Shown in pieces: positions 20,566-29,240 of a stretch of DNA of 36,412 bases (position 1 is the stretch's first letter; each line of letters begins with the position of its first letter). The notes beneath the pieces were generated by a model. That model was not told the DNA's origin. It did no database searches and worked only from the letters and a program-made list of their open reading frames with translations. The stretch covers positions 1-36,412 of the forward strand of contig JACCYJ010000230.1 in the NCBI GenBank assembly GCA_013696555.1, written 5' to 3'. The DNA comes from Nocardioidaceae bacterium. GTDB lineage: Bacteria > Actinomycetota > Actinomycetes > Propionibacteriales > Nocardioidaceae. A program made the position numbers and the translations under genes.

Positions 20566-20598
20566 TGCTCTGGCGACCGCGATGCAGAACTTTCGTTT

Positions 20599-20747
20599 CT
20601 GGCGCAACCGCCACCGACCCCAGCTCGCGGCGGGTGGCGCAAATCGGCGGGATGCTTGCCGAGTGGCGCAATCTTGCTGGCTCTCACGTCCTGAGTGGCG
20701 CAAATTGGTCAGCAAACGGCGTCCAGGGCGACGAATTTGCGCCACTC
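20599..20747 (+). repeat. GTGGCGCAAAT repeat cluster with perfect 14-bp inverted repeat
   Basis: ctggcgcaac 20599 (degenerate), gtggcgcaaat 20634, gagtggcgcaat 20661, gagtggcgcaaatt 20693-20706, reverse copy aatttgcgccactc 20734-20747 (exact reverse complement). Confidence 0.8.
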
Positions 20748-20885
20748 GCGGGCCTGAAAGGCCCCCGCAGGTGAGTTCGCTCGGCGAAAGTTTCTCGCCC
20801 GATCCGCGACACGCGGCCGCGCTCGTTGATTGCTGACACCCAGCGACCTAGTTTGCTGCGCAGTCGGCAGGTTGACATAACTATA

Positions 20886-20902
20886 ACCCTCCACTAGAGG
20901 GT
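20886..20902 (+). promoter_or_regulatory. ftsZ upstream palindrome ACCCTC-CACTA-GAGGGT adjacent to TTGACA (20872-20877)
   Basis: gTTGACAtaactataACCCTCcactaGAGGGTgag; 6-bp perfect inverted repeat about 100 bp upstream of the ftsZ start. Confidence 0.55.
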
Positions 20903-20995
20903 GAGATGAAAACCAACCTTTCGGCCTTCCCCGGACAGCCGAACCGCGTGCCGTACCCACCGGGTCCGGCCACCACACATTGAGAGGTGCGCGCC

Positions 20996-22273
20996 GTGGC
21001 AGCGCAGAACTATCTGGCGGTTATCAAGGTCGTCGGCATCGGTGGCGGCGGAGTCAACGCGGTCAATCGAATGATCGAGGTCGGGCTCAGGGGCGTCGAG
21101 TTCATCGCGATCAACACCGACGCTCAAGCACTGCTGATGAGTGACGCCGACGTCAAACTGGACATCGGGCGCGAGCTCACCCGCGGGCTGGGCGCCGGCG
21201 CCGATCCCGACGTCGGGGAAAAAGCGGCCGAGGACCACGCCGACGACATCGAGGAAGTCATCAAGGGCGCCGACATGGTCTTCGTCACCGCCGGTGAGGG
21301 AGGCGGCACCGGAACCGGTGGCGCACCCGTCGTCGCGCGGATCGCCCGATCACTGGGAGCACTGACGATCGGCGTGGTCACCCGCCCGTTCTCGTTCGAG
21401 GGGCGCCGGCGGGCCAACCAGGCCGAAGAAGGCATCGCCGCCCTGCGCGAGGATGTCGATACGTTGATCGTCATCCCCAACGACAGGTTGCTCTCGATCA
21501 GCGACCGCAGTGTCAGTGTCCTCGACGCGTTCAAACAGGCCGACCAGGTCCTGCTGCAAGGCGTCTCTGGGATCACCGACCTGATCACCACACCGGGCCT
21601 GATCAACCTCGACTTCGCTGACGTGAAGTCGGTGATGTCCGATGCGGGCTCGGCGTTGATGGGTATCGGGTCCTCGCGGGGCGACGAGCGGGCCGTGGCC
21701 GCCGCCGAGATGGCAGTGTCCAGCCCCCTGCTCGAGGCGTCCATCGACGGGGCGCACGGAGTGCTGCTGTCGATCGCCGGCGGATCAGACCTTGGGCTGT
21801 TCGAGATCAACGAGGCGGCCGCGCTGGTCAGCCAGGCGGCGCACCCGGAGGCAAACATCATCTTCTGGGCGGTCATCGACGATGCGCTCGGTGATGAGGT
21901 GCGGGTCACCGTGATCGCTGCCGGATTCGACGGCGGAACACCTAAGCGACGTGACCTCGGTCAGCCGGTGCTGCGTCGTGAAGGGGCTGCCGTCCCGCAG
22001 GCGTCGCAGCCGTCGGCTGGTCAGCCAAAGGCCGCGCAGGCTCCGCAGCGAACCCCAGCGGTCGTCGGAGCCGGCGCAAGCGCGGTAACGGCGCCAGCGA
22101 ACGGCGACAAGGCGGGCTCACCGCAGCCGGCTCGGCCTCGGGTCCCGGTGCAGCCAGTTCCGGTGGGAGTCGGAGCGCAGTCTGGGGGCGACCCGTCGAG
22201 CAGCCCGCAGCGGAAACCGCGACCGGTGAGCTTCGATGACGACGAGCTCGACATCCCGGACTTCTTGAAGTAG
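20996..22273 (+). CDS. ftsZ: Cell division protein FtsZ
   Basis: [64 protein letters not shown]-terminal [14 protein letters not shown] gagagg 8 nt upstream of GTG 20996. Confidence 0.98.
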
Positions 22274-29122: not shown

Positions 29123-29188
29123 CGTGGGAGTCCTCCGTGCCCGCGAGGGGCGCAGTCTCGTTGCTCCGGATGCCGTCGGATGACCGAC

Positions 29189-29240
29189 TTGCGCCACTTG
29201 GGACGGGGGCCAGCAGGTTTGCACCACTCGGACGGGGGGC
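29189..29240 (-). repeat. Two direct copies of TTGC(G/A)CCACT(T/C)GG(G)ACGGGGG(G)C, 30 bp apart
   Basis: ttgcgccacttgggacgggggc 29189-29210 and ttgcaccactcggacggggggc 29219-29240; reverse complement gives GTGGCGCAA as in the ftsQ-ftsZ cluster. Confidence 0.6.

Follow-up and report, generated by a model that had tools for sequence, protein, structure and literature searches.

The stretch of DNA analysed here, referred to as the window, is 36,412 nucleotides long and contains a gap of about 458 bp between ftsQ and ftsZ, if ftsZ is taken to start at the GTG at 20996 (the longest open reading frame begins at 20987). The gap holds an array of short half-sites that includes one palindromic element, and a second copy of this element lies elsewhere in the window.

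20598 to 20608, plus strand: degenerate (decayed) half-site, TCTGGCGCAAC.
20632 to 20644, plus strand: additional direct half-site, GGGTGGCGCAAAT, lying 61 bp in front of the left arm of the palindromic element.
20660 to 20672, plus strand: extra direct half-site, 32 bp ahead of the left arm, in which CGAGTGGCGCAA occupies 20660-20671.
20693 to 20747, no strand assigned: palindromic element of 55 bp, consisting of a GAGTGGCGCA arm, a 35-bp centre and a TGCGCCACTC arm.
20750 to 20764, no strand assigned: GGGCCT-GAA-AGGCCC hairpin, GGGCCTGAAAGGCCC, outside the dispersed element.
29145 to 29199, no strand assigned: second copy of the palindrome, with one mismatch in one arm, located in the gap from which ileS and a dksA-like gene diverge.
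29217 to 29227, minus strand: extra half-site, GTGGTGCAAAC, outside the second copy and oriented like its right arm.

All motif positions given in the initial annotation were confirmed when the window sequence was re-read. Direct copies begin at 20634, 20663 and 20695, with spacings of 29 and 32 (GTGGCGCAAAT at 20634-20644 and 20695-20705, GTGGCGCAAT at 20663-20672), an opposite-strand copy occupies 20735-20745, and the hairpin lies where it had been placed. The degenerate copy claimed at about 20599 was found at about 20598. The perfect 14-bp inverted repeat is likewise present, its arms GAGTGGCGCAAATT (20693-20706) and AATTTGCGCCACTC (20734-20747) being separated by 27 nt and reaching 18 nt if one mismatch is allowed. 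The useful unit is larger than the 11-mer originally described, namely GAGTGGCGCA-N35-TGCGCCACTC, in which inverted half-site copies led by GAGTGGCGCA are set at a nearly fixed offset of 43 bp. The GGGCCT hairpin is unique to the ftsQ-ftsZ copy and absent from the other copies, and so forms no part of the element. Loose half-site matches (up to two mismatches) are not enriched in the window, with 12 found and 8.2 expected.

Other motifs also lie upstream of ftsZ. A highly conserved block, about GGTTGACATAACTATAACCCTCTACTTGAGGGTGAG, at roughly 20869-20907 has counterparts at the same position upstream of ftsZ in L109, L111, L113-L115 and L118; by eye, it looks like a MerR-type promoter with a dyad. 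At about 20804-20816 there is a CGCGACACGC-like motif, recurring upstream of ftsZ in relatives, which we take to be reminiscent of the GACAC site of WhiA.

Copies of the palindrome are dispersed through the genome from which the window comes, a 2.8 Mb draft of 300 contigs with 95% completeness. The arrangement exceeds chance expectation by a wide margin: the exact palindrome, GTGGCGCA-N24..40-TGCGCCAC, occurs 10 times compared with 0 for a reversed-pattern control, and spans 51 bp in eight cases, 52 bp in one and 45 bp in one (measured between the outer ends of the GTGGCGCA cores). When one mismatch is allowed, the loci read in this genome amount to about 20 copies. Nearly all palindromes are intergenic, lying in 12 convergent, 17 tandem and 6 divergent gaps according to gene calls by a simple codon-bias finder; those inside genes are probably chance matches for the most part, either in other families or of the wrong length. 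Judged from its sequence, the repeat before ftsZ belongs to a REP-like palindromic element that is dispersed between genes, and is one of its copies. An inserted element of this kind had been the second option of the initial annotation, which is borne out by the further copies, and its proviso that the repeat might have no others genome-wide falls away.

The same annotation had drawn attention to a phasing of roughly 30 bp. This holds within the window's genome, where 15 of 20 elements have extra half-sites at a modal offset of 28-34 bp, but does not extend further: the offset is 21-22 bp in other species, and phasing of extra half-sites is absent in G009. Most copies in G309, G300 and G283 (L140, L144, L148, L142, L146 and L141) have an extra direct half-site at 21-22 bp ahead of the palindrome. 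A c-di-AMP riboswitch is located about 600 bp from one palindrome (L016:2213-2387, on contig C40 of G000).

An operator array or a structured leader controlling ftsZ had also been proposed for this locus. The array does sit in the ftsQ-ftsZ gap, upstream of the conserved promoter-like region of ftsZ, and half-sites in this genome recur with a phase of 28-34 bp, yet such a role is very improbable. Of the genomes in which the gap was read, only the window's genome carries the element there; it is absent from the gap of the congener G001 and of 28 other relatives. About 20 copies lie elsewhere in the window's genome, in gaps of every type. For an RNA leader, Rfam gave no match at the ftsQ-ftsZ locus and the arms do not covary within elements: across 68 elements from five genomes, the arms of one element are no more complementary than those of different elements, with each arm conforming to the consensus of its genome. 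A folded RNA or DNA hairpin under selection is not favoured by this pattern, which is in keeping with protein half-sites on duplex DNA. A hairpin may nonetheless play a part: in G011, the outermost arm bases do change together (ATCGAC/GTCGAT versus GTTGAC/GTCAAC). An ftsZ operator, an RNA leader and a bidirectional terminator were rejected on the distribution of the element, the missing covariation and the copies in divergent gaps.

Other, unrelated repeats occupy the ftsQ-ftsZ gap in some genera. In G008 (L111) there are about seven units of the CGACGATCCGCGACACGGCC type, in G014 (L113) a GGCAGTTTC...GAAACTGCC palindrome centred on CGACACGCC, in G009 (L115) ACCAAGTTCACCAGGTA repeats, and in G006 (L118) a GGTGGGTACGGCACCAG palindrome. 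With such repeats in the same position, the gap resembles a tolerant landing place and not a conserved, regulated site.

Palindromes that share the GTGGCGCA ends and differ inside are found across several genera of one family, with 20 in G009, 15 in G018 and 10 in G006. The family is presumably Nocardioidaceae, as the nearest named matches to ftsQ come from Nocardioides. A class-wide scan of 395 genomes identified the GAGTGGCGCA palindrome in six, five of which belong to this family. A general CGACACGCC core was considered as the defining feature and discarded, since every G006 and G309 copy and most of those in G012 have it, but no copy in G000, G009 or G018. In G283, a second palindrome, GCCCGCCACTC-NN-GAGTGGCGGGC, is nested in the palindrome centre (L141, L145, L149 and L154). 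Name-string and keyword searches of the literature returned no precedent.

Some palindromes are paired about 1.1 kb apart (1129 bp in G009, 1128 bp in G031, 1135 bp in G309 and 1161 bp in G017) and enclose one gene, which is homologous in these genomes. This gene is bracketed on both sides in G009, G031, G309, G006, G030, G016, G015 and G017. Both flanking palindromes are clear in G009, G031, G015, G016 and G017, while both are degenerate in G006, as is the downstream (right) one in G030; some homologues, in G003, G014, G035 and G019, have no clear two-sided palindromes. The product is predicted to be an AbiEi-like/DUF559 protein with an N-terminal winged helix and a C-terminal PD-(D/E)XK nuclease. 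The DUF559 profile (PF04480) matches 19 of 27 members, several of them under the curated cut-off, and MTES_1575 matches 14 of the 27 aligned members. AbiEi models (PADLOC) also match family members, as tallied over the alignment and not for L148, with the winged-helix resemblance in the GTGGCGCA clade judged by eye. The C-terminal domain conserves the E...D...E-x-D...H pattern found in DUF559, MTES_1575 and Vsr-like PD-(D/E)XK nucleases, with invariant E182, D214 and E225 and nearly invariant D227 and H231 (L148 numbering). The literature search found no paper linking the DUF559 family to dispersed palindromes.

Several DUF559/AbiEi-like proteins are present in most relatives sampled, and close homologues of the bracketed nuclease (E below 1e-75) were found in seven relatives when 59 genomes were searched. 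All seven carry the palindrome, compared with 3 of the 52 others (Fisher P=3.5e-7), where a carrier was defined, after the data had been seen, by at least two matches or one of 51 bp; P is 1e-5 when single chance-like matches are counted. Presence of the nuclease goes together with abundance of the cognate palindrome. The eight GTGGCGCA-bracketed nucleases group as a single clade in a maximum-likelihood tree, with a support of 96/96.

A nuclease of the GTGGCGCA clade was not found in the window's own genome (a 300-contig draft of 95% completeness), where the best homologue (C149, L178) falls with the G011 type and is preceded by a palindrome of another kind. G018 and G001, which are also drafts, likewise carry palindromes without a close nuclease homologue. 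Probably, the copies in the window are orphans or the nuclease gene is missing from the draft assembly. Repeat-bracketed genes easily drop out of a draft of 300 contigs, and an orphan palindrome population and a lost gene are equally possible. Searches of phage and viral collections did not find the nuclease gene and those of plasmids hardly did, which is what a chromosomal system would lead one to expect; the viral and plasmid collections yielded no useful relatives.

If palindrome and nuclease form a matched pair, distant homologues would be expected to have different palindromes, scattered in their own genomes only. Across the genomes compared, palindrome and nuclease do differ together from lineage to lineage, with distant homologues bracketed by other palindromes. 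The G011 gene, for example, is bracketed by 62-bp CTGGCGCGTTGCGTAG palindromes, of which there are eight in G011 (two adjoining the gene) and none in the 13 other genomes of the 14 searched. The G012 gene is followed by 55-bp GGGTCACGAACGACA palindromes, present five times in G012 (one adjoining the gene) and absent from the 13 others of 14, among them the congener G033, which has only distant nuclease homologues. Three paralogues in G037, of about 72% DNA identity, are each flanked on either side by a palindrome of their own; the upstream one is degenerate in copy a, whereas copies b and c have clear ones. Over 160 kb of G029, the half-site GCGGTTTGG was counted 15 times, versus 0 for a reversed control, some copies adjoining the gene.

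Exact repeats of at least 14 nt, a cut-off picked after the values had been seen, are common to the upstream and downstream flanks of 12 of 21 homologues compared with about 7 of 225 other genes. Shared flanking repeats are also found at the distant homologues L187, L188, L190-L194 and L198 when slightly wider flanking windows are taken. L187 (G013) is flanked by arrays of TCTACCGCGATAACCCGGTAAACGG-type units in a more tandem arrangement. Recognition specificity appears to change along with the protein, and the comparison suggests an undescribed system made up of a gene and its scattered repeats.

This arrangement resembles that of REP/REPIN sequences and RAYT (TnpA-REP), also known as 'REPtrons', in that short extragenic palindromes, some in inverted doublets or clusters, accompany a single gene that is bracketed by cognate palindromes and co-varies with them. 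REPtrons have a dedicated gene between two cognate palindromes, co-variation of the two, and abundant palindromes confined to genomes with the cognate gene (PMC2817692, PMC3116915, PMC8266576); gene-bracketing, co-variation and abundance tied to the gene were described for the REP/RAYT pair by Nunvar and colleagues (PMC2817692). However, the enzymes are unrelated, the one here being an AbiEi-like/DUF559 PD-(D/E)XK protein and not a Y1 HUH transposase. The palindromes also lack the GTAG tag, their arms fit half-sites at a fixed spacing and do not covary, and they number about 5-25 near-intact copies (by strict patterns, with decayed copies excluded), against the more than 100 per genome used as a criterion for REP/RAYT. 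The Y1 transposase profile PF01797 was absent from G000, G001, G006, G009, G015, G016, G017, G018, G030 and G031. REP/RAYT proper was rejected because carriers lack the Y1 transposase and the copy number is lower.

AbiEi antitoxins, from type IV toxin-antitoxin systems, share the predicted N-terminal DNA-binding region, and AbiEi binds inverted repeats (PMC7319586). Here, in contrast, this region is fused to a DUF559-like nuclease, and the repeats lie on both sides of the gene and are dispersed genome-wide. No AbiEii (DUF1814) toxin was noticed among gene neighbours at G009 and G031, which were read by sequence only.

The signs of mobility are indirect. The neighbourhood of the palindrome-gene-palindrome unit differs between the congeners G009 and G031; a supposed synteny between 200-300 kb in G009 and 3.3-3.7 Mb in G031 did not hold. 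Copies in G011 and G012 have common centres with unrelated flanks right outside the palindromes, which points to copying of the palindrome itself. No clean target-site duplication was found for solo palindromes. Some of the dispersal can be attributed to another transposon: two G009 palindromes (L075:1464-1605 and L083:1431-1695) lie inside small elements with GAGGCTGTTGC...GCAACAGCCTC ends, which we take to be IS5-type. Three G009 sites were compared with orthologous G031 sites that lack the element, and boundaries were clear at L083 only. There, the palindrome arrived inside the MITE, which has a likely duplication of TGA or CTGA and whose site is empty in G031, indicating transposon carriage and not self-movement.

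We consider it probable that the element is a dispersed REP-like palindrome with a cognate AbiEi-like/DUF559 nuclease as its partner, and we infer that this nuclease moves or copies the palindromes through binding and cleavage. What the sequences themselves show is dispersal, intergenic location, presence or absence among species, bracketing, co-occurrence and clade specificity. The AbiEi-like region of the nuclease would recognise the half-sites as double-stranded DNA, as suggested by AbiEi biology, in which the binding of inverted repeats is a precedent for half-site recognition (PMC7319586), and by arms that follow a consensus without covarying. The nuclease domain would then nick or cut at the palindrome. 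Solo palindromes, and sometimes the whole palindrome-gene-palindrome unit, would be copied to new intergenic sites, and selection would leave palindromes in gaps such as ftsQ-ftsZ, where they may have little or no role. Against the copying mechanism, no transposases are known among PD-(D/E)XK nucleases of this type, and the low number of intact palindromes per genome (about 5-25) also counts against this reading. So do the carrier genomes in which no close nuclease homologue was found, the homologues lacking clear two-sided palindromes, the missing target-site duplication of solo palindromes and the two G009 copies carried by a MITE.

Alternatively, the palindromes could be operators of the AbiEi-like protein, used for autoregulation, with the dispersed copies acting as a regulon or as decoys and any movement being incidental or historical. 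Antitoxins of the AbiEi family are bound to inverted repeats within the promoters of their own genes (PMC7319586), the upstream palindrome lies within the promoter region of the nuclease gene, and the arms act as independent consensus half-sites at a fixed spacing. Such a role is nonetheless unlikely given that palindromes are also located 3' of the gene and that 12 elements lie between convergent genes. Element positions also vary among relatives, and the centres of the copies are alike as if by descent. The palindromes might instead be ends or cargo of a conventional MITE/IS family in which the nuclease gene is a passenger. Like MITEs, they are short, non-coding, dispersed and intergenic, with inverted ends, and the two G009 copies within IS5-type-ended elements, one with its duplication and empty G031 site, are in keeping with this. 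However, such ends are missing from the 15 further G009 copies checked, and neither a parent transposase nor a general target-site duplication was found, only the two G009 copies lying in a true MITE. A mere passenger would also not be expected to have, in every nuclease lineage, a distinct palindrome on either side, making this explanation improbable.

AbiEi-like/DUF559 nucleases are common and unexplained in Actinobacteria. To our knowledge, HUH transposases are the only dedicated enzymes known to accompany REP-like palindromes. There is about an even chance that the AbiEi-like/DUF559 nucleases are the enzymes of an unrecognised class of mobile or copying elements, in which each nuclease would recognise a double-stranded palindrome of its own that brackets the gene and spreads between genes as solo palindromes. 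This would make the class a convergent counterpart of REP/RAYT, with a restriction-type nuclease fold as its basis. The gene-palindrome pairs of G009, G011 and G012 and of the three G037 paralogues are ready for a comparison of recognition. If true, the pairing of a restriction-type nuclease with lineage-specific palindromes would mean that such systems arose more than once, and would give DUF559/AbiEi-like proteins a testable role.
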